A DNA stretch of 64,000 bases from Actinomycetota bacterium (GTDB lineage: Bacteria > Actinomycetota > Geothermincolia > Geothermincolales > RBG-13-55-18), in assembly GCA_028697145.1 (NCBI GenBank), contig JAQVFR010000004.1, positions 65,390 to 129,389 of the forward strand, read 5' to 3'. Below are positions 45,305-59,120 of this stretch, in pieces; positions within the stretch are counted from its first letter, which is position 1, and the number at the start of each line of letters is the position of its first letter. The position numbers and the translations under genes are program-made. A model generated the notes under the pieces. That model saw only the letters and a program-made list of their open reading frames with translations. It ran no database searches and was not told the DNA's origin.

Positions 45305-46153
45305 CTAAGCACGTGAGGGCATGCCGTCCCTCGTCAGGGTCCTGTCCAGGAACCAGGTCATGAAGCGCAGGACCTGGCAGTATATGGGCGGACACGTGCG
45401 CTTGAGCAGATAAAGCAGCTTGATGTCCATAGACGTGATGACCATAAACTTATTCCTCTCTATGGCGCCGATTATGAGATCGGCTACCCGCTCGGGGGCC
45501 ATGGCATGCCTGCTGAACAACCTGCGGCCTTTCTCGCAGGCATCCTCGTCCGCGTTTATGACCACCGTCCTGACCAGGCCCGTGTTCACGGCCCCGGGCA
45601 GGATGACACTGACGCCGATGCCGTGCTTCCTGAGATCGTAGCGCAGCACCTCCGCGCTGCCCACCAGCGCGTGCTTGGTGCCCGCGTATGCGACGTGCCA
45701 CGGCAGGCCTATTATCCCCGCGGTAGAGGAGACGAGCAGCACGTGACCGCCGTTTCCGGCGCGCACCATCTCGGGGACGAAGCACTCTATGGCATGGTAC
45801 GGCCCCCAGAGGTTCACATTCACTATCCTTTCCCACTGCTCGTGGATCATGTCCTCGACCTGTGAGAACAGCGCCACCCCCGCGATGTTGGCCAGGATAT
45901 CCAGAGGGCCGGACCCGGCGTGTATCTCATCCGCCATCTTCCTGACCGCATCGTAATCCGAGACGTCCAGGGGCGCGCAGAAGCAGACCTCCGCGCCCTT
46001 TCCCTCGACCTCTCGCCGCGTCTCCTCGAGCCCGTGCGCGTTGATGTCGGTGATGAACAGCCTGGCGCCCCGCTCCGCCATGGCCAGCGCCGTCGCCTTG
46101 CCGATGCCGCTCGCAGCGCCGGTGATCAGGGTTTTCTTTCCCGCTATCTCCAT
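45305..46153 (-). CDS. Short-chain dehydrogenase/reductase
   Basis: KTLITGAASGIGKATALAMAERG; YAGTKHALVG; start 46153. Confidence 0.92.
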   Translation of the reverse strand: MEIAGKKTLITGAASGIGKATALAMAERGARLFITDINAHGLEETRREVEGKGAEVCFCAPLDVSDYDAVRKMADEIHAGSGPLDILANIAGVALFSQVEDMIHEQWERIVNVNLWGPYHAIECFVPEMVRAGNGGHVLLVSSTAGIIGLPWHVAYAGTKHALVGSAEVLRYDLRKHGIGVSVILPGAVNTGLVRTVVINADEDACEKGRRLFSRHAMAPERVADLIIGAIERNKFMVITSMDIKLLYLLKRTCPPIYCQVLRFMTWFLDRTLTRDGMPSRA

Positions 46154-46237
46154 GTGCCTCCTCCTCCTCCGCGTTGCGCCCGCCACCTCGCCGAAACGAG
46201 ACAGGCGCCCACTCTATTTCACCGCTCGATGTAACCC

Positions 46238-46486
46238 CTAGGTTAAGGCCTGGTCCTTGAACTCGAGGAACTTCTCATCCCCCTGCTTCCCGGCCCTCTC
46301 CTCCAGGAGCTCGGCGTGAGACATGCCGGCCGCTATCGAGAGGCCCCGCGCCTTGAGGATGCTCAGCAGGTTCCTGCCCAGGGTCCCCCTGCGCGATTCA
46401 TCCGCGAGAAAAAGTACCCCGCTGCGCAGGCCCCTCCAGGCGATAAACGACATCTGACGGTATTTCCGCATTTTCCCCGCTTCCAT
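46238..46486 (-). CDS. Hypothetical protein
   Basis: Short ORF between SDR and TetR; start uncertain (46486 or 46525). Confidence 0.4.
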   Translation of the reverse strand: MEAGKMRKYRQMSFIAWRGLRSGVLFLADESRRGTLGRNLLSILKARGLSIAAGMSHAELLEERAGKQGDEKFLEFKDQALT

Positions 46487-46639
46487 TTCCTCTCCTGCGC
46501 TCGCACAACCGGAATAAGCCACCACTATATTCAGGTACTATAACAAACGCTATTATTGTAATCAAGTTGTGTTGTATTCTCTCCTGTTATTGCTGCTAGA
46601 AGCTCATTTACGACGGCATTTATGCATGCTATCATTTGG

Positions 46640-46655
46640 GTAAGTAATTACTTAC
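46640..46655. promoter_or_regulatory. TetR operator candidate
   Basis: Perfect 16-bp palindrome GTAAGTAATTACTTAC 20 bp upstream of the TetR start. Confidence 0.6.
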
Positions 46656-46674
46656 TTATTTAAGGAGGCAGGTC

Positions 46675-47286
46675 ATGGCCGAAAGAGCGAAAAGGCCCGG
46701 GGCGGAAGAGCGCCGCAAGCAGATACTGGATGCCGCCACCGAGGTGATCGGCGGGAAGTGCTACCATTCGGCCACGACCAGGGAGATCGCCGAGGCGGCG
46801 GGGGTCTCCGAACGCACCATTTTCCTCTACTTCGAGAACAAGAAGGAGCTCTACCGCGAGGCCGTCAAGCAGGCACACCGCGACCTGTTCGATGCCCTGG
46901 GCCGGTCCGCTCCTCCCATGGATGATATGCGGACTTTCCTGAAGATGAGCGAGAGGAACTTCCTCGCCTATCTCGAAGAGCACCCGCTCAAGGTCAAGAT
47001 CCTCTTCCAGGCCCTCGATGCCCTGGGTGATGAAGACCTCCGCGAGGATATCCGGGGTACTTTCCAGTCGTTATTCGAGCTGTTCATGGCCATTATCGAG
47101 AAAGCCAAGGAGCGCGGGGAGATCAACGAGGACGTGAGCACCCTTTCGGCGGTCGTATCCATCCTCGGCTTCCACTTCATCGTGGCATACGTCGAGTTCC
47201 TGAAGCTGGACTGGTTCGCCGGGGAGGAGGACATCTACTCCGTCGTCGACGTCTTCGCCGACTTCGTCACCGGCCGCGACAAATGA
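46675..47286 (+). CDS. TetR/AcrR family regulator
   Basis: RRKQILDAATEVIGGKCYHSATTREIAEAAGVSERTIFLYFENKKELY. Confidence 0.93.
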   Translation: MAERAKRPGAEERRKQILDAATEVIGGKCYHSATTREIAEAAGVSERTIFLYFENKKELYREAVKQAHRDLFDALGRSAPPMDDMRTFLKMSERNFLAYLEEHPLKVKILFQALDALGDEDLREDIRGTFQSLFELFMAIIEKAKERGEINEDVSTLSAVVSILGFHFIVAYVEFLKLDWFAGEEDIYSVVDVFADFVTGRDK

Positions 47287-47402
47287 CGGGGGTCTCGCTG
47301 GGGGTCACATCCTGGATCCAGGATTTCATATGACTAGCGGAATGTAACCTCCCCACATCCCCCATCTCGACGCCAGGAGAGCGAGCTACCGCACTGTTGC
47401 TG

Positions 47403-48954
47403 TAATTCTTTTGTAGGCAGGTCTGAGAAGGAAAAAGAGGAGAGACCACTCAATTATTCCTGAGTGAAGCAAAACAAACAGGAGAAAGGAGTGATCTCTC
47501 ACATGTCAGATCTGTCTCAGCTTATCTCAAGGTTAGTGGAAGAGAAAGATGATTTCAACGAGCTGGAGGACGGGCTGGTAAAAGAGCTGTTCGAGGTGGG
47601 CAGAAAGGTGCTGCGGGGGATACTGGAACACATGGATGCAGAGCTCATGAAGGAGAGGGCAGAAGGCCTGCGCCACCTGGGGGTGCGGGAGCGCACCGTG
47701 CTTACCCGCCTCGGCGTGCTGAGGATAAAGAGAAGGTATTACCGGGAGCGCGGGGGAGGGACCCGCTTTCTCTTAGACGAGGCCCTGGGCTGGGGAGGCG
47801 GGCTGGCCGCCACCCCGGCGCTCGAGGCCCGGGCGCTCAAGATGTGCTCCGAATCCTCCTTCCGCTGCGCGGCGGATAACCTCTCCTTCTTCCTGGCGGA
47901 GAACATCCGGCACACCCTCCTGCACGAGATGGTGGGCAAGCGGGGCAGCGAGGCCGCCTGCGCCAAGCAGTCCCTGGCCTGCGACCTGTTTGAATCAGGA
48001 GTGATTCCCGCATCTGAGGGCAGGCGCGCCGAGCGCCTGTTCATGGAGGCGGATGGCTGCATGATCAGCCTGCAGAGGGCGGGCAGGCGCAAGCACGAGC
48101 TCAAGGCGGGCATCTCCTACGAGGGCTGGGAGCAGGTGGGAAAGGACAAGTGGAGACTTGCCGAAAAGCGCTCCTTTCTCTCGGCCGCCCCGGCGGATGA
48201 TTTCCTGGCGGCCTGGAGCGCCGATCTCGCCACCGTCTATGACTACCGGGGCGTGAGCGAGGCGGTGTGGTCCTCGGACGGGGCGTCCTGGCTGGCCCGG
48301 GGGCCGGACCTGTTCTCCGTCACCGTGGCCCAACTGGACCGCTTCCACCTCGCCCGGGCCCTGCGGCGAGCCCTGGGGTCAGACCCCGAGGCCTCTCGCC
48401 TGATCTCCCTGGCGCGGGAGGGCCAGGGGAACCTGGTGATCGAGGCCATGGAGGAGCGCCTCGCCCGCACTCTGGACCCCAAGAGGAGGAAGCACATGGC
48501 GGAGGCCATCTCCCTGCTCAAGGGGGCCTCCTCCCGCCTTGCGGACTGGAGCCTGACCCTTAAGCCCCGCGACGGCGACCGCTCTTTGGGCTGCATGGAA
48601 TCCAACGTGGACAAACTGGTCGCCGACCGCTTCAAGAAACGCGGCATGAGCTGGAGCGTCTCCGGCGCGGACCACATGTGCAAGATCATCGAGCTCAGCC
48701 GCAACGGCGAACTGGCGGGCTGGTGCAGAGAGAGACGCGCATCAGCAGAAGGCATCGAGGTCAAGGCCTTCGAGAAACTCAAGAGGGAGGTGAGGCGCGA
48801 TCCTGAGCGGTGGTGCCAGGCCTATGTTCCGCTGCTCTCCTCAAAGAGCGGGCAGCCATGGGTAAAGGACGTACTCAGGCACCTTGCAGGCTTGGCGGTA
48901 TCGGCATGATTGCTTTCACCAGGATGAGGGTGCCTACTTTTCGTTGACAGCCAA
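47403..48954 (+). mobile_element. ISLre2-like insertion sequence
   Basis: UPF0236/ISLre2-type transposase bracketed by 13-nt direct repeats CGCACTGTTGCTG (47390-47402, 48955-48967); GTAGGCA motif at both ends in inverted orientation. Confidence 0.6.
47503..48909 (+). CDS. ISLre2 family (UPF0236) transposase
   Basis: RTVLTRLGVLRIKRRYYRERGGGTRFLLDEALGW and Asp/Glu-rich core; intact ORF. Confidence 0.85.
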   Translation: MSDLSQLISRLVEEKDDFNELEDGLVKELFEVGRKVLRGILEHMDAELMKERAEGLRHLGVRERTVLTRLGVLRIKRRYYRERGGGTRFLLDEALGWGGGLAATPALEARALKMCSESSFRCAADNLSFFLAENIRHTLLHEMVGKRGSEAACAKQSLACDLFESGVIPASEGRRAERLFMEADGCMISLQRAGRRKHELKAGISYEGWEQVGKDKWRLAEKRSFLSAAPADDFLAAWSADLATVYDYRGVSEAVWSSDGASWLARGPDLFSVTVAQLDRFHLARALRRALGSDPEASRLISLAREGQGNLVIEAMEERLARTLDPKRRKHMAEAISLLKGASSRLADWSLTLKPRDGDRSLGCMESNVDKLVADRFKKRGMSWSVSGADHMCKIIELSRNGELAGWCRERRASAEGIEVKAFEKLKREVRRDPERWCQAYVPLLSSKSGQPWVKDVLRHLAGLAVSA

Positions 48955-49704
48955 CGCACTGTTGCTGCCTTGAAATGAAGGAGAAGCTAATATAACATAT
49001 AGAGGAAATACGGCCTGGAAGGGGCTTTGAGCGATGCAAGCAGGATTGAATAAGCAAAGCGGATCCTGATAGATACCGGCTCAAGAACGGCGCACGGATG
49101 TGCATGAAACCGGTGTTGGGCTAACGGAGAAGCGCTAAGACAGGATGAACAGGGAACGGATATGAATGTTCGTCATTCCAGTACTGGCAGGCTTAAGGAA
49201 AGGAGTACCTCTTTTCTTAACATTGCAACGGATCTTTCAGGGGCGAATCCGGGAGGTCCGGCAGTATATAAATGCCTCCAAGGAAAAAGCAGGAACGGGA
49301 AATCCACTTCCAGGATCGACCGTGACTGTAACAGGGGAGATGATCCCGAATTATACTTCGGATCAGATATCAGGCTTTTTCGTAACAGCGCGCACGGTAA
49401 AGAAACCCCTGCAACGGCGCCTTCCTCGGGGCCGGGCGCGGTAAGCGATTTTCAAAAGACGACCACCGTTGCTTCGACACTTGTGGGAGAAACCACCCAC
49501 TTATTCCGCAAGAATGAGAGCTTCTGGCAGGTCCCCTCACCCTGGGACCTCTTCGCGAGATTCAGAAGCCACAGGGCCTTCTGATAGTAACCGCCCGGTC
49601 TCTGACCCCGTTTCTCTCTTCTTTCAGGGAAAAGGAAACGATGGCGTTTCGTGTAGGGCCGGGGAAGCTCTGGAAGCAGGGAGCGAGAACTGGAGGGAAT
49701 CTCT

Positions 49705-50538
49705 ATGTCTTCAGATGATTACGCAGAAGTGGCGAGAGAGTATTACAACAGCGCTGTGCACCAGATCTACAGGGAGTGCTGGGGAGGTGAAAACCACCAC
49801 CTGGGGATCTTCGACGACGTCGATGATTTTTACCACGCCGCCAAAAAGGCCAACGAGAACCTGGTGGGAAAACTAAGGATAGACCCGGAATGCAGGATCC
49901 TGGATATAGGAAGTGGTTTTTGCGGTCTGCCACGCTTTATCGCGCGGAACACCCCTTGCCGCAGGATAACAGCCCTTAATATATCCGACAAGGAGAACGA
50001 TTTTGCCAGGAGGAAAAACGACGAAGAAGGCCTGGGGGATATGATCTCCGTAATTGAAGCCGATTATAATGACATGCCCTTCGCGGATGATGAGTTCGAC
50101 ATCCTGGTCAGCCAGGACTCCATGTTACATAGTCCGGACAAAAAGATGTTGCTCAGGGAATGTGCGAGAGTACTTAAGAAAGGAGGGCAGTTTGTATTTT
50201 CCGATATTCTGGAAGAATCCACCCTGAGCAGGGAAGAAGCAGAGAGGATATACGCCCGAGTACGGGTGCCCCATCTTTCATCCTTCCACTATTACCGGCG
50301 CGAGCTTCCCAAAGCCGGGTTCAATGTCGATGAGGTCCAGGACCTGGGAAGCGAAAATCTCGCCAAGTCATACCAGGCCGTCCACGATATTTTGAGCGGC
50401 AAGAAAGACCGCCTGGTAAAGGAGGTGGATGTCCCGCTTGATGTCATCGAAAACGCCCTGGCAGGCCTTTCGTACTGGGTGGAAAAGGCACTTGAGCGGA
50501 AGATTGGATGGGGGCTTTTTGCCGCAACGCACAGTTGA
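49705..50538 (+). CDS. Sarcosine/dimethylglycine N-methyltransferase-like SAM methyltransferase
   Basis: CRILDIGSGFCGLPRFIA; paired with GSMT-like gene. Confidence 0.8.
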   Translation: MSSDDYAEVAREYYNSAVHQIYRECWGGENHHLGIFDDVDDFYHAAKKANENLVGKLRIDPECRILDIGSGFCGLPRFIARNTPCRRITALNISDKENDFARRKNDEEGLGDMISVIEADYNDMPFADDEFDILVSQDSMLHSPDKKMLLRECARVLKKGGQFVFSDILEESTLSREEAERIYARVRVPHLSSFHYYRRELPKAGFNVDEVQDLGSENLAKSYQAVHDILSGKKDRLVKEVDVPLDVIENALAGLSYWVEKALERKIGWGLFAATHS

Positions 50539-50583
50539 GGAAAAAGCGCGTCAGGGGAAACGAAGAGAAAGAGGAGGGATACT

Positions 50584-51330
50584 ATCTATACCCTGAAAGA
50601 GAAATTCAAGGAAGAGTATGCTGCCGGACTGGCCGATAAGTGGGACGAGCTTATCGATTGGGAGAAGAGGAGGGAATCCGAAGGAGGGTTCTTCGAGAAG
50701 CTGCTGCTGGATAACGGCGCCTCCAAGGTGCTGGATATCGCCTGCGGTACCGGATATCATGCCATCCAGCTGGCAAAGAGCGGGCTCGAGGTGAAGGCTA
50801 CCGACGGCTCGGAGGAAATGCTCGAGAAGACCAGGATGAACGCGGAAAAGCACGACGCGGATATAGAAATCGAGAAGGCGGACTGGCTCAACTTAACGGA
50901 CGTTATCGAAGAGCGCTACGATGCGGTAGTTTGCCTGGGAAACGCGCTCACCCACCTTTTCCACGAGGACTTATACCTGCGGGCCATCGGGGAAGTATAC
51001 GAGGTACTGAACGAGGACGGGATCTTCATAGTGGATCAGAGGAACTACGACTGCATCCTGGACAAAGGGTACGACAGCAAGCATAAGTACTACTACTGCG
51101 GGCAGGAAGTGGAGATAGAGCCCGTCGTCGTAAACGAGGGCATGGTAAAGATGCAGTACATGTTCAGCGAAGATGAGAGATACTACTTGACCATGCATCC
51201 CATTCGAAGAGAAGAACTCAGCGGGTACCTGAAAGAAACCGGGTTCAGAAGGATCGACATTTACGGGGATTTCGAGGAAGAGTTCGACAAATACGATCCC
51301 GACTTCATCATCCAGGCGGCCTACAAGTAA
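50584..51330 (+). CDS. Glycine/sarcosine N-methyltransferase-like SAM methyltransferase (start codon unresolved)
   Basis: In-frame translation upstream of the tracked ATG (50728) gives [58 protein letters not shown]; later [35 protein letters not shown]. Confidence 0.8.
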
Positions 51331-51356
51331 CGGGGCCTGATCGTCAGCCCGGATTT

Positions 51357-51698
51357 GTGCCTGAGACAATGGGGCAAGTCCGCACGAGGATCTGCCGCCG
51401 GGCTGCCGGCCTGGCGGAGCGTTTCGAGGTACAGCTTGCCTACGCCATAGGAGTGGCGCATCCCGTTTCCATAATGATCGAGGCGTTCGGCACGGAAAAG
51501 GTGCCACTGGCCACCATCGAGGCGCTCATAAGGGAGCATTTCGATCTGCGGCCGGCGGCCATCATAAGGGACCTGAAACTGCGCAACCCCATATACATGA
51601 AGACCGCGGCATACGGCCATTTCGGCCGCCCGGACAGTGATTTCACCTGGGAACACGCGGACAGGGCGGAAGCGCTGCGCAGCGAGGCGGGCTTATAG
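51357..51698 (+). pseudogene. metK: C-terminal fragment of S-adenosylmethionine synthetase
   Basis: [27 protein letters not shown]...[53 protein letters not shown]-terminal domains absent. Confidence 0.8.
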
Positions 51699-52011
51699 CG
51701 CACGGGCGCGGGAAGTAGTCAGGAGTAGAAGCACGGACGTTGCCGGACGGCATCCGGTCCTTTAAGGGACCGGCATGTGCGGGGCACTCCCCTACCCCGC
51801 CAGCGGCAGCCGGCCCTCCATGGCCGGTATGAAAGAGTTGCGCACCCCGGGTGCCCGCAGGCCCGGGGCTCCCGCTAGCGGCTGCAGCCGCATGCTCAAT
51901 TCCACATTAAAAAAGCCTGGAAAAGCCCCTGTGTAGCGTTTTCTTAATGAAATTCCTCAATTTGCGCCTGGCCGCGGCCAGCGTTATTGCAGGATATAGA
52001 AGTGCCGGCGC

Positions 52012-52043
52012 AGAAGGCAGTTTAGAAAAGAGGCGGTTTTCTG
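52012..52043 (+). repeat. 32-nt direct repeat, left copy
   Basis: AGAAGGCAGTTTAGAAAAGAGGCGGTTTTCTG; identical at 58827-58858. Confidence 0.9.
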
Positions 52044-52207
52044 GAGGAGGAAGGGGGTTCTTGGCCAATTCATAATATAAACAAAAGCAGTCATGTGGCC
52101 GCCCCCATTATCGGTAACCTAAACTTAGAAAGTATTTCGCATTGCAGCTTGTATAATGGCTAGACATAATGAGGGGATAGACATATTGTTAGGAGGGTGA
52201 AAGTGGC

Positions 52208-53533
52208 TTGACTGCTTGTTACATTTACAGTCATGAGAACAACATCTTATATTTCTATTTCGGGAATCGCATGGCTCAGGTGCAGAGGTCTCCCTTAGAA
52301 CACACACCAACGGTTCCCGTACAAGAACCTCATCTTCCAGAGCGTGTTCCTCTCGTACATGCGGACGCTGAGATACCTCCACAGTCCTCGGAATATAGAT
52401 ACAACAGGACGCACAGGCATATCCTGTCCATCTGGTTTGTTGTCTCCGTACTATTGGTAGTAACGGCCATTATCCTCATCCTGGTTTTTTCTTTGACTGG
52501 ACCCGTTTATAAGGTGACCATGTTCCGTGCCAATCAGGAAAGAAGTGGAGAATACACCGGACGCGGCCCTTCCGCCCTCACGGGAGTTAAGTGGAGGTTC
52601 AAGGCGGGAGGCCAGGTTCATTCCTCCCCGGCGGTTTCCGGAGGTAAGGTATATTGCGGCAGCTCAAATGGACACATCTACGCCCTGGATGAACAAGAGG
52701 GAGCGCTTATATGGAAGTCAAATACATCAGGGGTTAATCGTTCCTCCCCAGCGATATCAGGAGGCATGGTCTATTGCGGCAGCTCCGATGGACACATCTA
52801 CGCCCTGGATGCGGGTACGGGCAGGGAGAGGTGGAGGTTCGAGACCGGAGATGAGGTGACCTCCTCCCCAGCGGTATCCGGAGGCATGGTCTATTGCGGC
52901 AGCTCCGATGGACACGTCTACGCCCTGGATGCGGAGACGGGAAGGGAGAGGTGGAGGTTCGAGACGGGAGGCTCAGTGACTTCCTCCCCGGCCATTTACG
53001 AAGGCACCGTCTACTGCGGGAGCTTGGATATGCACATCTACGCCGTGGATGCGGATACGGGAAGGGAGAGGTGGAGGTTCGAGACCGGACACTGGGTAGG
53101 CTCCTCCCCTGCGGTATCCGGAGGCATGGTCTATTGCGGCAGCTCCGATGGATACGTCTACGCCCTGGATGCGGTGACGGGCAGGGAGAGGTGGAGGTTC
53201 GAGACCGGAGATGAGGTGACCTCCTCCCCAGCGGTATCCGGAGGTATGGTCTATTGCGGCAGCTGGGACAGATTCATCTACGCCGTGGATGCGGATACGG
53301 GAAGGGAGAGGTGGAGGTATGAGACATGGGGCGAGGTGCTCTCCTCCCCGGCGGTATCCGGAGGCATGGTCTATTGCGGCAGCTCCGATGGACACGTCTA
53401 TGCCCTGGATGCGGAAACGGGCGGGGAGAGGTGGAGGTTCGAGGAAGGATGTTTCTTATACTCGTCCCCTGTAGTGTCCGGAGGAGCGGTATTCACTGGT
53501 AGTCCCGCCGGATACTTATATGCTTTGGAATAG
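52208..53533 (+). CDS. Membrane-anchored PQQ-like beta-propeller protein
   Basis: TM ILSIWFVVSVLLVVTAIILILVF, then eight about 40-aa SSPAVSGGMVYCGSSDGHVYALDAETGRERWRFETG repeats; TTG start after AGGAGGG (or ATG 52271). Confidence 0.85.
   Translation: MTACYIYSHENNILYFYFGNRMAQVQRSPLEHTPTVPVQEPHLPERVPLVHADAEIPPQSSEYRYNRTHRHILSIWFVVSVLLVVTAIILILVFSLTGPVYKVTMFRANQERSGEYTGRGPSALTGVKWRFKAGGQVHSSPAVSGGKVYCGSSNGHIYALDEQEGALIWKSNTSGVNRSSPAISGGMVYCGSSDGHIYALDAGTGRERWRFETGDEVTSSPAVSGGMVYCGSSDGHVYALDAETGRERWRFETGGSVTSSPAIYEGTVYCGSLDMHIYAVDADTGRERWRFETGHWVGSSPAVSGGMVYCGSSDGYVYALDAVTGRERWRFETGDEVTSSPAVSGGMVYCGSWDRFIYAVDADTGRERWRYETWGEVLSSPAVSGGMVYCGSSDGHVYALDAETGGERWRFEEGCFLYSSPVVSGGAVFTGSPAGYLYALE
52621..53520 (+). 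repeat. Intragenic 120-nt tandem repeat array
   Basis: Near-identical units recur every 120 nt (e.g. 52741, 52861, 53101, 53221, 53341). Confidence 0.9.
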
Positions 53534-53709
53534 AGATAACAAACATGCCTGCAGCCTAAAAGTCCCACGAGAAGGCTACGGAGGCAATATGACGACTCAC
53601 CTGCCTCGAGCTGAGGCCCTGATAGTCACTTTCCAGGAGCAAGTATCTCAAGTCACCTATTTCAATACTCCTAGCGCCCGGCTTATCCTTCATCCCTGCT
53701 GCGCCATGC

Positions 53710-55107
53710 CTAGTTCTCGTTCTGTGCCGCCATCATCGCTTCCGCCATTCTCTTCAGCTCTTCCAGGCTGACGAAACCCGTTAGCCGCACCTTTATATCC
53801 CCCGCCTCGAAGTAGAGGGTGCCACTGCTGTCACCCATGGTGTAAAAATGCGCCTTGCCGCCTGAAAGCTCGATCTCCTGCCGGGCGAAACCGGGCATGC
53901 CCGTCGTGCTGGCAGGGTTCCCTTTTTGGTGTTCTTTCAGGGCATCCTGGGCAACGTAGATGAAGCTGCTTCCGTTGCGGTATATGAAAAAGCTCGGCTG
54001 TTCCCATACCGGGTTCGGAGTATCCGGAACGTTGTTCGTAACGAGCTTTGTGTTATCAACATAGCCAGCCTCGTACAGCTCATAGCCGCTTGGCAAATAC
54101 GGCGGCAACACATACTTGTAGGTAAGGACCGCGTCCAGCTCCTCGACGTTTGCGACTGCAGTATATCCGTGATCCGAAACGGAAACTCTGCCGCCTGCCG
54201 CATCCAGCTCCTTCCGTGCATCGAATTCGAACCTGGAGGGATCGATATCTATGTTCATTTCAACCGAGGTGATCTCTATTCTGCGAGCAAGCTGTCCGCC
54301 GGCGTACAGCTCCTCCCGCAGCACGATGCCGCTGTCCTTATCCACGAACAGATAGTTGGTGGCATCACCTTCACCATCTGCGGATCCTCTCTGCATCGTG
54401 AGCTCCACTTTTATGGCCGGCTTATCGCCCACTCTCTCCTCGCCTATGACCTTGAAATTCGATTTGTCCTGCAACAACCCTTCAACAGGCATCGTATACA
54501 GTGCATAATGCGGGTAACCGAAGAAGTCGCCCCCCGGCCAATGGGGTATGTTCTTCTCCAGTTGAACGAAATGAACCTCGCCCTGTCCGTCTGTGGTCAC
54601 AAACATGAAGTCCTTGCCGTCACATTTCGCTATGGAAATGATCCTGGAGTTCTCCGAGGTCGGTCCTACATCCGTTACGTTAATGACGGAGTGAAACTTG
54701 CCGGGGAACTCTATCCACACATCCTCAGTTGTTTCGGTAAATACCCTTCCCTCATCATTGTATTCGAGATTCGATATCGTCATATGCACGCTCTTCATGT
54801 CCCGCAAGGCTTCGCTCGTAACTTGGCAGATGACGTCCGCTGATACGGTGCTCGGCCTGCCGAGACCGGCAACGATCAGAGAGGCTGTGATCGCAACGAA
54901 GAGTGCAAGCAGCAGGAGTGCGGCAATCAAGCTTATGGGACGCAGCCTCCTCGCCATTCCTTTTCTCGCAGGGCCCCGTCCTACCACTTCCCCAGCTGCG
55001 GCACTTTTATGAGCCCTCTCGATGATCGCTCCGAGGCTTCTCATGTGAGACGGCACTTCCACCATTGGGAAATAAACCTTCTTCACATCCCTTGCCATGG
55101 CAATCAA
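53710..55107 (-). CDS. Anti-sigma-factor-like membrane protein with LolA/RseB-like ectodomain
   Basis: N-terminal cytoplasmic segment, TM PISLIAALLLLALFVAITASLIVAGL, extracytoplasmic domain; immediately downstream of an ECF sigma gene. Confidence 0.75.
   Translation of the reverse strand: MIAMARDVKKVYFPMVEVPSHMRSLGAIIERAHKSAAAGEVVGRGPARKGMARRLRPISLIAALLLLALFVAITASLIVAGLGRPSTVSADVICQVTSEALRDMKSVHMTISNLEYNDEGRVFTETTEDVWIEFPGKFHSVINVTDVGPTSENSRIISIAKCDGKDFMFVTTDGQGEVHFVQLEKNIPHWPGGDFFGYPHYALYTMPVEGLLQDKSNFKVIGEERVGDKPAIKVELTMQRGSADGEGDATNYLFVDKDSGIVLREELYAGGQLARRIEITSVEMNIDIDPSRFEFDARKELDAAGGRVSVSDHGYTAVANVEELDAVLTYKYVLPPYLPSGYELYEAGYVDNTKLVTNNVPDTPNPVWEQPSFFIYRNGSSFIYVAQDALKEHQKGNPASTTGMPGFARQEIELSGGKAHFYTMGDSSGTLYFEAGDIKVRLTGFVSLEELKRMAEAMMAAQNEN
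53731..54895 (-). repeat. Large direct duplication, copy A
   Basis: Matches 55924-57088 at constant offset 2193; one mismatch noticed (54781 c vs 56974 a). Confidence 0.92.
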
Positions 55108-55116
55108 CCTCCTTCA

Positions 55117-55746
55117 TTAGGGACCCTTCTCGAGTATCGTATTAAGCGCTACGCTCTCCAACAGCGCTTGCTGTTCTGATTGCTGCATCCATCTTCTAAG
55201 TAGCCTTAGACCGCGATGACACTGCGCCTTGACCGTGCCTGTCGGCCTGCCCAATATGCTTGCTGTCTCTTCCAGTGTTCTGTCTTCGAAGTACCTTAAA
55301 AACACAACCTCTCGATACTTCCTGGGCAGCTTGCATAAGTAAGGGGTGATAGCGATGAAGTCATCGCTGTTTTCCAGTTGATTCCATGCCTCCTCTATCT
55401 CACTCTTGACCGACTCATTCCTCGCTCTCACCGCATCGTCATGAAATGAACCCATGCCGCTGGCATGCTTGCCTATTGTATTCAACCTGCGAAAGTACAT
55501 TGCTATCTCTCTCGACGCTATACGATAGACCCACGCTGAGAATGTTCCCTTTGTGTAGTCATATTGCTCTAGTGCTTGTAGCGCTTTCAAGAACGTCTCG
55601 GACGTTAAATCCAGCGCAACTTCAATATCCCTCGTGCTATACAGGATATAGTTGAGTATCCTCTTGTAATTAATCTCGTATAATGCGCTGAATGCTCTGA
55701 TGTCATCCTTTACGTTCTTCTCAAGATCTCTATTTCTGCTATCCAG
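55117..55746 (-). CDS. ECF-type RNA polymerase sigma factor
   Basis: Region 2 YDYTKGTFSAWVYRIASREIAMYFRR and region 4 LPRKYREVVFLRYFEDRTLEETASILGRPTGTVKAQCHRGLRLL; N-terminus extends upstream of tracked 55590 to an apparent CTG. Confidence 0.85.
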   Translation of the reverse strand: MDSRNRDLEKNVKDDIRAFSALYEINYKRILNYILYSTRDIEVALDLTSETFLKALQALEQYDYTKGTFSAWVYRIASREIAMYFRRLNTIGKHASGMGSFHDDAVRARNESVKSEIEEAWNQLENSDDFIAITPYLCKLPRKYREVVFLRYFEDRTLEETASILGRPTGTVKAQCHRGLRLLRRWMQQSEQQALLESVALNTILEKGP

Positions 55747-55905
55747 AGTGCTTCCTCCCGTAGGTTCGCGTCAAACCCCAGTGAATACCCCTCTATATAT
55801 TTAAATGCATATAGAGCAAGGATGGTTGCATGCTTTTGTATGCCAGCATCGAGGAGGGGGCTCACAACAAGCCCCCTCCATATTCCACACCAAGCAACAA
55901 AGATA

Positions 55906-57147
55906 TTACTTTCGGGTGTTCTCCATCATCGCTTCCGCCATTCTCTTCAGCTCTTCCAGGCTGACGAAACCCGTTAGCCGCACCTTTATATCCCCCGCCT
56001 CGAAGTAGAGGGTGCCACTGCTGTCACCCATGGTGTAAAAATGCGCCTTGCCGCCTGAAAGCTCGATCTCCTGCCGGGCGAAACCGGGCATGCCCGTCGT
56101 GCTGGCAGGGTTCCCTTTTTGGTGTTCTTTCAGGGCATCCTGGGCAACGTAGATGAAGCTGCTTCCGTTGCGGTATATGAAAAAGCTCGGCTGTTCCCAT
56201 ACCGGGTTCGGAGTATCCGGAACGTTGTTCGTAACGAGCTTTGTGTTATCAACATAGCCAGCCTCGTACAGCTCATAGCCGCTTGGCAAATACGGCGGCA
56301 ACACATACTTGTAGGTAAGGACCGCGTCCAGCTCCTCGACGTTTGCGACTGCAGTATATCCGTGATCCGAAACGGAAACTCTGCCGCCTGCCGCATCCAG
56401 CTCCTTCCGTGCATCGAATTCGAACCTGGAGGGATCGATATCTATGTTCATTTCAACCGAGGTGATCTCTATTCTGCGAGCAAGCTGTCCGCCGGCGTAC
56501 AGCTCCTCCCGCAGCACGATGCCGCTGTCCTTATCCACGAACAGATAGTTGGTGGCATCACCTTCACCATCTGCGGATCCTCTCTGCATCGTGAGCTCCA
56601 CTTTTATGGCCGGCTTATCGCCCACTCTCTCCTCGCCTATGACCTTGAAATTCGATTTGTCCTGCAACAACCCTTCAACAGGCATCGTATACAGTGCATA
56701 ATGCGGGTAACCGAAGAAGTCGCCCCCCGGCCAATGGGGTATGTTCTTCTCCAGTTGAACGAAATGAACCTCGCCCTGTCCGTCTGTGGTCACAAACATG
56801 AAGTCCTTGCCGTCACATTTCGCTATGGAAATGATCCTGGAGTTCTCCGAGGTCGGTCCTACATCCGTTACGTTAATGACGGAGTGAAACTTGCCGGGGA
56901 ACTCTATCCACACATCCTCAGTTGTTTCGGTAAATACCCTTCCCTCATCATTGTATTCGAGATTCGATATCGTAATATGCACGCTCTTCATGTCCCGCAA
57001 GGCTTCGCTCGTAACTTGGCAGATGACGTCCGCTGATACGGTGCTCGGCCTGCCGAGACCGGCAACGATCAGAGAGGCTGTGATCGCAGACAACAGAAGA
57101 ACCGTCCCTATCGTTAGGGCTATATTTCTTGAATATCTATTGCGCAT
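55906..57147 (-). CDS. Secreted/membrane paralogue of the anti-sigma ectodomain with a different N-terminus
   Basis: MRNRYSRNIALTIGTVLLLS then ITASLIVAGLGRPSTVSADVICQ... identical to 53710 product except about 1 residue and the C-terminal tail. Confidence 0.8.
   Translation of the reverse strand: MRNRYSRNIALTIGTVLLLSAITASLIVAGLGRPSTVSADVICQVTSEALRDMKSVHITISNLEYNDEGRVFTETTEDVWIEFPGKFHSVINVTDVGPTSENSRIISIAKCDGKDFMFVTTDGQGEVHFVQLEKNIPHWPGGDFFGYPHYALYTMPVEGLLQDKSNFKVIGEERVGDKPAIKVELTMQRGSADGEGDATNYLFVDKDSGIVLREELYAGGQLARRIEITSVEMNIDIDPSRFEFDARKELDAAGGRVSVSDHGYTAVANVEELDAVLTYKYVLPPYLPSGYELYEAGYVDNTKLVTNNVPDTPNPVWEQPSFFIYRNGSSFIYVAQDALKEHQKGNPASTTGMPGFARQEIELSGGKAHFYTMGDSSGTLYFEAGDIKVRLTGFVSLEELKRMAEAMMENTRK
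55924..57088 (-). repeat. Large direct duplication, copy B
   Basis: See 53731-54895. Confidence 0.92.
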
Positions 57148-57176
57148 GCTTCATCTCCTCTCAAGATCCACAAGGT

Positions 57177-58553
57177 CTAGTTGAAATAGCTGCTTCTCTC
57201 AACGCTCACAGGCCAACGACCTCCAACCAGTGCAACATGGATTGAGCAATTCCTGTTCCATGGTATACCCATATCTTGGATTCGAACGCTACCGACTTTC
57301 CCCACTGTGATACTGAAGGACCAATTATCAGCCGTGTCTGTTGTGACCCACACGTTGAATTGTGCTGATGAATATGATGAGCCGTTGTAGAAGGTTAGAT
57401 ACACATCATGACCTGTATAGCATTCTGCAAAGAAGAAGTCCTTGTTGCCAACATCATATCCATTTCTTCCTTCGCTACTTGTAGCCCACTGACCATACTG
57501 CGTTGTTCTCTCTGTATTGTAGTAATACGGGTTCAGCGGAGTCTGGCTAAAATTAATCCTATCAGCCTTTGTCCCATAGTTTGTCCCACTTGGAACGCCG
57601 CTAGTTGATCGGGAGAGGCTAGATCCAGTGTATACCCAGTTTGCAGCTGGAGACGTTGAGCCGCCATTCCATATATGTTGTGTATCAACCCTAATGTAAG
57701 CACCACCACTTCCTAACCATCCATCTGTAAAGCCAGTTACGAACCATGTAGGATAACTTGAATACCCCTCAGAAAAATAAATTAAATCGTTCTGCTTCCT
57801 CCATGTTCCCCCATTTGAGGCTACCATAGTCCCTTTGACATATGATCTTTCCGCCATGAAATTATTTGTCCCTGTTGATCTTACCCTCGCTACTCTGTTC
57901 TTGGGGCTTCCGCTGGCAAACCCCGCTGTTCTTCTTGTTTTCGGTGGCATATACCAACCTATCGTTTCTTTGGAGTTGTTATCACTTCCTCCGTTATACG
58001 CATCTACATACATATTTGCGCCTCTGGTCAGGTCGGCATTATAAACCTCTACATATGAGGTTGAAGAAGAATCTGAATAGACATCTCCAAAACACCACCA
58101 TGGATTAGTAGCATCCTTATTAATAAGGGTTCTCGAGCCAGTGCCGCAGCTTCCTTCGTTGCCCGCATATATACTTCTTTCTGCTACAAGCCCAAATTCG
58201 CCATATACAGTACAAGAGTATTCTTTATTACTCCCTATTACTCCGTTGACATATACCGTACCCCTGCGGCTTGGCCCTATAGACAACGATGTGTGTCCTA
58301 TTTGTGAGCTGCTATCATAAAAATATAAATCTACTTGCTGGCTATACTGTGAACAACTCCTTATGGCAATATAGTTCTGCCAGCCAGTATATCCATCAGC
58401 GAAATACCATGCAGTAGATGATCCTGAGGCTCCGCTTGACGTGTGGCCACCTTTTGCGGTGCTAGGCGGCGTTGCATAGGAGACAGCTGTTGAAAGTATT
58501 AGAAAAGAAAGCGCCAATATAACAACAAAGTAAACCCTTCTTGTGGGATTCAT
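57177..58553 (-). CDS. Secreted protein of unknown function
   Basis: Signal peptide VYFVVILALSFLILSTAVSYA; Gly/Ser/Tyr-rich; AGGAG RBS. Confidence 0.75.
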   Translation of the reverse strand: MNPTRRVYFVVILALSFLILSTAVSYATPPSTAKGGHTSSGASGSSTAWYFADGYTGWQNYIAIRSCSQYSQQVDLYFYDSSSQIGHTSLSIGPSRRGTVYVNGVIGSNKEYSCTVYGEFGLVAERSIYAGNEGSCGTGSRTLINKDATNPWWCFGDVYSDSSSTSYVEVYNADLTRGANMYVDAYNGGSDNNSKETIGWYMPPKTRRTAGFASGSPKNRVARVRSTGTNNFMAERSYVKGTMVASNGGTWRKQNDLIYFSEGYSSYPTWFVTGFTDGWLGSGGAYIRVDTQHIWNGGSTSPAANWVYTGSSLSRSTSGVPSGTNYGTKADRINFSQTPLNPYYYNTERTTQYGQWATSSEGRNGYDVGNKDFFFAECYTGHDVYLTFYNGSSYSSAQFNVWVTTDTADNWSFSITVGKVGSVRIQDMGIPWNRNCSIHVALVGGRWPVSVERSSYFN

Positions 58554-58684
58554 AGGATCACTCCTTTACAAGCGCTGAACACGAATGGATGAATGAATGC
58601 ATCGAGTTCTTTCGTTTGATCTCCACCCCCTTAAGGCTAGCCTCACTTACTTCCGTTTAGCATATCTAGCCCCACCCTAAAATC

Positions 58685-58716
58685 ATTCTAGCTTATTAAG
58701 CCCCCCCCCCTGTCAA
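58685..58716 (-). promoter_or_regulatory. Candidate promoter with G10 spacer tract
   Basis: Minus strand TTGACA-GGGGGGGGGG-CTTAATAAGC-TAGAAT, about 130 nt upstream of the 57177..58553 start. Confidence 0.5.
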
Positions 58717-58826
58717 TGTACATTTATCGCATACATTATCTATGCGTAGGACGCCCATGGATTTGTATCCACGCCGATAAAACAGCAGGATAATCACATA
58801 CCTACCGCTAAGAGTATCGCTGAGGT

Positions 58827-58858
58827 AGAAGGCAGTTTAGAAAAGAGGCGGTTTTCTG
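58827..58858 (+). repeat. 32-nt direct repeat, right copy
   Basis: Identical to 52012-52043. Confidence 0.9.
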
Positions 58859-59045
58859 AAGCTAGTATGTTGATAAGGAAGCGCCTATTATTCGGGATGA
58901 GCGGTAGAAGAATTGAACACTGATAAAATACGCCAAGGTACAAATCGGGCAAATCGTGTGGTCATATTGTGGTCACGGGGTCTTCCGGAGACCAGCCCAA
59001 CGAAAAGCAGGCCGGGGAATATATCCTCTGGCCTGCTCTTATAGG

Positions 59046-59120
59046 TGGAGCCCCTGGCGAGAATCGAACTCGCGCACAAGGATTAGGAATCCTTTGCTCT
59101 ATCCACTGAGCTACAGGGGC
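59046..59120 (-). tRNA. tRNA-Arg (anticodon CCU)
   Basis: GCCCCTGTAGCTCAGTGGATAGAGCAAAGGATTCCTAATCCTTGTGCGCGAGTTCGATTCTCGCCAGGGGCTCCA cloverleaf, encoded CCA. Confidence 0.95.

Follow-up and report, generated by a model that had tools for sequence, protein, structure and literature searches.

The G10 tract in the window, the whole 64,000-nucleotide stretch of DNA analyzed here, directly follows a -35-like hexamer upstream of a secreted-protein gene. The same layout, with spacers in two length classes, recurs in seven related promoters in a class of uncultured Actinomycetota, mostly ahead of genes for secreted proteins. The reading we favor, tentatively and at close to even chances, is that of a conserved G-run promoter module for secreted-protein operons, probably weak or regulator-dependent. 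The module would act as a promoter that is weak alone and activated by something else. Homopolymers in promoter spacers are usually taken at once for phase-variation switches. In the comparative data presented here the G-run is retained in different genera, its spacers have discrete lengths, and the class lacks MutS; this would make 'switch or structural spacer' a question open to direct test.

The promoter-like site and its G10 tract

Direct reading of the minus strand, from 58716 down to 58685, agrees exactly with the sequence-only reading of this site as TTGACA-G10-CTTAATAAGC-TAGAAT with 20 bp between the hexamers. The features of the site and of the genes behind it are as follows.

58717-58741, minus strand: upstream flank ATNATGTATGCG...ACA, alike in the three copies with a 20-bp spacer
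58711-58716, minus strand: -35-like hexamer TTGACA, from sequence; TTGAC is kept in 8/8 related promoters, several of which came from patterns requiring TTGAC
58701-58710, minus strand: G10 homopolymer, the -35-proximal half of the spacer; seven related promoters have a G-run (G5-G9) in this position
58691-58700, minus strand: CTTAATAAGC, the -10-proximal half of the 20-bp spacer, from sequence
58685-58690, minus strand: -10-like hexamer TAGAAT, from sequence and promoter scoring
58670-58677, minus strand: GGGTGGGG, the expected transcript start; GGG(Y)GGGG lies 7-8 nt past the -10 in 6/8 promoters
58622-58670, minus strand: leader conserved by alignment, with a possible weak hairpin (GGCTAG...CTAGCC) and the SD-like AAGGGGGTGG
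57177-58553, minus strand: gene for a 458-aa secreted protein, ATG start, SD AAAGGAGTGATCC
55906-57147, minus strand: gene for a LolA-like/DUF4367 membrane-anchored protein by annotation, 29 bp downstream of the secreted-protein gene

Three observations single out this site. First, the -35/-10 pair scores 11/12, the best value in the 492 bp between the tRNA-Arg gene and the ATG. Second, a score of at least 11 with a spacer of 15-21 arose in 12 of 1000 upstream regions simulated with a Markov model. Third, no pair with a 16-18-bp spacer scores above 8 in the same 492 bp. For these reasons TTGACA-G10-TAGAAT, judged by its sequence, resembles a promoter more than any other site upstream of the secreted-protein gene and is a candidate promoter, its -10 ending 131 bp upstream of the ATG. 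The last G of the tract and CTTAATAAGC together form a perfect GCTTA-A-TAAGC dyad; this spacer dyad, GCTTAATAAGC, is perfect only in the window copy and imperfect or absent in the others, being absent in the congener G001. In the leader, two-sided changes affect three of the nine predicted hairpin pairs among four sequences, and the RNA fold of the one strand is no better than that of shuffled sequences. An Rfam scan of the promoter and leader region matched only the tRNA, with the remaining hits under their gathering scores, and an Rfam leader or riboswitch identity was rejected for want of a family match.

Poly-G/C tracts had also been described as scarce in the window, and the count agrees: G10 is the sole G/C run of at least 8, the next longest being G7. 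The window tract is likewise the only G-run of at least 10 in the 2.98-Mb assembly, which holds runs of at least 9 at five places. None of the four other G9 places resembles the TTGACA-G10-TAGAAT promoter, and one is close to the end of a contig, in G-rich DNA. When the window (61% GC) was simulated with a first-order Markov model, the longest run reached at least 10 in 159 of 300 simulations. Since about half of the simulated windows contain such a run, the G10 is not improbable by base composition; it is rare by the standard of the actual genome, which is depleted of long runs.

Related promoters and their spacers

When 100 relatives were searched at the DNA level, sequence homologous to the promoter turned up in the congener (G001:C99) and in G009:C14, from the MAG 'Actinomycetota bacterium isolate Ch49', which belongs to another genus of the same family. 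The congener reads TTGACA-GAGCGGGGGGCAAAATAAAG-TAGAAT with an interrupted tract (GAGCGGGGGG) whose longest G-run is 6, and the Ch49 copy reads TTGACT-CGGGGGGGGGCTTCGCGAGC-TACAAT with G9 (tract CGGGGGGGGG). These two and the window copy, from three genomes and two genera, align without gaps, and all three spacers are 20 bp. In these alignments the G-run is conserved to the same degree as the -35 and -10, while the mean column identity is 71-79%. A sequence model built from the three copies retrieved three more promoters: G009:C9, G009:C57, and G000:C46. The last (L067) is a second G-run promoter in the window's own genome and has no intact gene downstream. Two others came through protein homology, where a G-run was not demanded: G021:C18 (TTGACA-CGGGGGGGGCCGCGC-TATTCT), from another family of the class, where it precedes the gene for a homolog of the window's secreted protein, and G009:C11 (TTGACC-GCGGGGGTAACGGCT-TACAAT).

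Listed in the order window, G001:C99, G009:C14, G009:C9, G009:C57, G000:C46, G021:C18, and G009:C11, the eight promoters have spacers of 20, 20, 20, 16, 15, 15, 15, and 15 bp and longest G-runs of 10, 6, 9, 7, 7, 6, 8, and 5. None of the eight has a spacer of 17-19, in a comparison that runs between species and paralogs rather than alleles of one locus. The seven members outside the window share TTGAC, G5-G9, about 6-10 nt, and TANNAT or a similar hexamer; a homopolymer of at least 8 between -35 and -10 is found in the window (G10), G009:C14 (G9), and G021 (G8). Secreted-protein genes, or remnants of them, lie downstream of at least six of the eight. In Ch49, all four genes of a secreted His/Cys-type family carry a G-run promoter, and two of these genes look broken.

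Searches with patterns delimit the module. A spaced pattern gave five matches in 32 genomes of the class and none when reversed. A scan of the whole collection gave four matches, three of them the Ch49 copies; a match in a Stygiobacter-labelled MAG (L076) has dissimilar flanks and was taken as chance. The motif TTGACNGGGGGG occurs 39 times overall in the class, barely above the 31 of the reversed control, and its general enrichment was rejected as unconvincing. The upstream DNA of the G007 homolog of the window protein lacks a G-run, as do the 142 bp available upstream of the G009:C86 homolog.

The four Ch49 genes (L060, L066, L075, and L147) encode a secreted family with conserved SGH and GC motifs that resemble, by eye, a caspase-like His/Cys dyad. 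The family has no Pfam match and is found in Ch49 only among the 32 class genomes; in the loci read, PepSY-like genes come next.

Presence at the same place in eight promoters marks the G-run after TTGAC as an old feature of this promoter family, whose spacers fall into two length classes. We propose a module in which a G-run follows TTGAC directly and about 6-10 nt separate this run from TANNAT, with GGG(Y)GGGG where the transcript is expected to begin; it would mostly serve secreted-protein genes in this class. Within the spacer the G-run would be a fixed structural element, holding the hexamers 20 bp apart (15-16 in other copies) and thus off the usual 17. Because of this departure the promoter should be weak by itself and would need a regulator or a particular condition. 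The two spacings, 15-16 and 20, lie about half a turn apart. A bolder extension, which we consider rather unlikely, is a new promoter class, TTGAC-Gn-...-TANNAT-N7-GGGYGGGG with spacings of 15-16 and 20, recognized by its own sigma factor or activator, through which a few secreted proteins would be controlled. MerR-type promoters offer a partial parallel, having an over-long spacer of 19-20 bp that requires a DNA-distorting activator. Of the eight copies three have 20 bp and five have 15-16 bp; the module has neither a conserved spacer dyad nor a MerR gene tied to it, and the likeness is at most one of working.

Slippage, relic, and assembly error

The main rival to a conserved module is phase variation: gains and losses of G during replication would alter the spacer and turn the operon up or down, as at porA, fetA, and tp0126. 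We regard such a switch as possible but distinctly less probable. Tract slippage itself is plausible. The pure G10 is the longest in the genome, and the product is surface or secreted. MutS_I, the mismatch-recognition domain of MutS, is found in none of the 32 class genomes as against 11 of 14 control genomes, so slips would go unrepaired by MutS. The Ch49 paralogs also differ in tract and spacer (G9/G7/G7/G5 with 20/16/15/15 bp). The sequence-only reading had gone further and proposed that loss of about three G would restore a 17-bp ON state. The relatives speak against this: they keep 20 bp with differing tract composition, or have 15-16. An exact 20 bp in three genomes, one with the interrupted congener tract, together with the empty 17-19 range, speaks against a tract that drifts about an ON state at 17 bp. 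Moreover, tracts of 5-7 are poor substrates for slippage, and 4 or 5 bases must change between the length classes. This comparative case may be called moderate, not strong, because the eight copies share ancestry and several were found by patterns demanding TTGAC and a G-run, which limits their independence. Of the earlier promoter proposal, the promoter-like element, the G-run, and the secreted product stand, and the ON/OFF switch through loss of about three G finds no support in the relatives.

In Neisseria, strains differ in the length of the poly-G spacer of porA and the poly-C spacer of fetA, with 17 bp as the optimum about which these vary (PMC5320596, PMC7864442). Like the window site, they place a homopolymer between the -35 and -10 of a surface-protein gene; unlike them, the relatives described here keep 20 or 15-16 bp. 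The Treponema pallidum tp0126 promoter, which drives a surface-protein gene, resembles the window site in having poly-G in its spacer; its stated optimum is 17 nt, and length variation of poly-G within isolates was shown for tprL (PMC7864442), whereas our comparison is between species and between paralogs. An actinobacterial precedent, which favors slippage, is HPT_37 of Propionibacterium acnes, a C-tract inferred between -10 and -35 for which 5 versus 7 C accompany an about 2-fold change in expression and in which the authors see slow, clade-wise change (PMC4746626). That tract is a single locus in one species, whereas here several related loci share a conserved G-run.

An ordinary promoter or decaying intergenic DNA, in which the G-run would have no role and be a neutral leftover from duplication of an upstream region, is in our estimate improbable. 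The run is not improbable by composition, as the simulations indicate, and both the G000:C46 copy without an intact gene behind it and the two broken-looking Ch49 genes fit decay. In addition, G6 directly follows TTGACA in a housekeeping-type promoter with a 16-bp spacer ahead of a tRNA-Thr gene (TTGACAGGGGGGCATATAGTACCATAAT; G008:C115, L114). Against a relic, the G-run has outlasted the divergence of its flanks and is present in two families of the class, and long G-runs are scarce in this lineage. An assembly error in the homopolymer length, by which the true tract would be shorter or longer and the 20-bp window spacer wrong, is very improbable: the source is a 52-contig, probably metagenomic assembly and long homopolymers are error-prone, but the 20-bp spacing is found in two other assemblies as well, one with only six G.

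Downstream genes and the surrounding block

The product of the gene at 57177-58553 had been called secreted, and its signal peptide is indeed clear by eye. The protein belongs to a four-member subfamily with the mature N-terminus ATPPxxAxGxHxxxG, related to FAEGYTG-repeat/DUF5719-like proteins, and had no match in a Pfam search. The LolA-like gene behind it (55906-57147) is probably part of the same operon, and a LolA-like gene also follows the homolog in G021.

A LolA-like/DUF4367 gene is tandemly duplicated over 1166 bp at 99.9% identity (53730-54895 and 55923-57088), and the copies flank an ECF sigma factor gene (55117-55590). An N-terminal part resembling an anti-sigma domain is kept in just one of the two duplicates. 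A 35-nt direct repeat (97%; 52012-52046 and 58827-58861) that contains an inverted repeat, AGAAAA...TTTTCT, brackets a 6.8-kb block; similar sequence is found in G002 (L017) and, by eye, beside the G001 promoter (L015). The stretch 52208-53533 encodes a PQQ/BamB-like beta-propeller protein with six tandem 120-bp repeats that are ~80% alike. Over much of 46000-59000 the GC content is 0.45-0.60, compared with ~0.64-0.66 around it, and this low-GC block, a possible island, ends at the tRNA-Arg gene (59046-59120).
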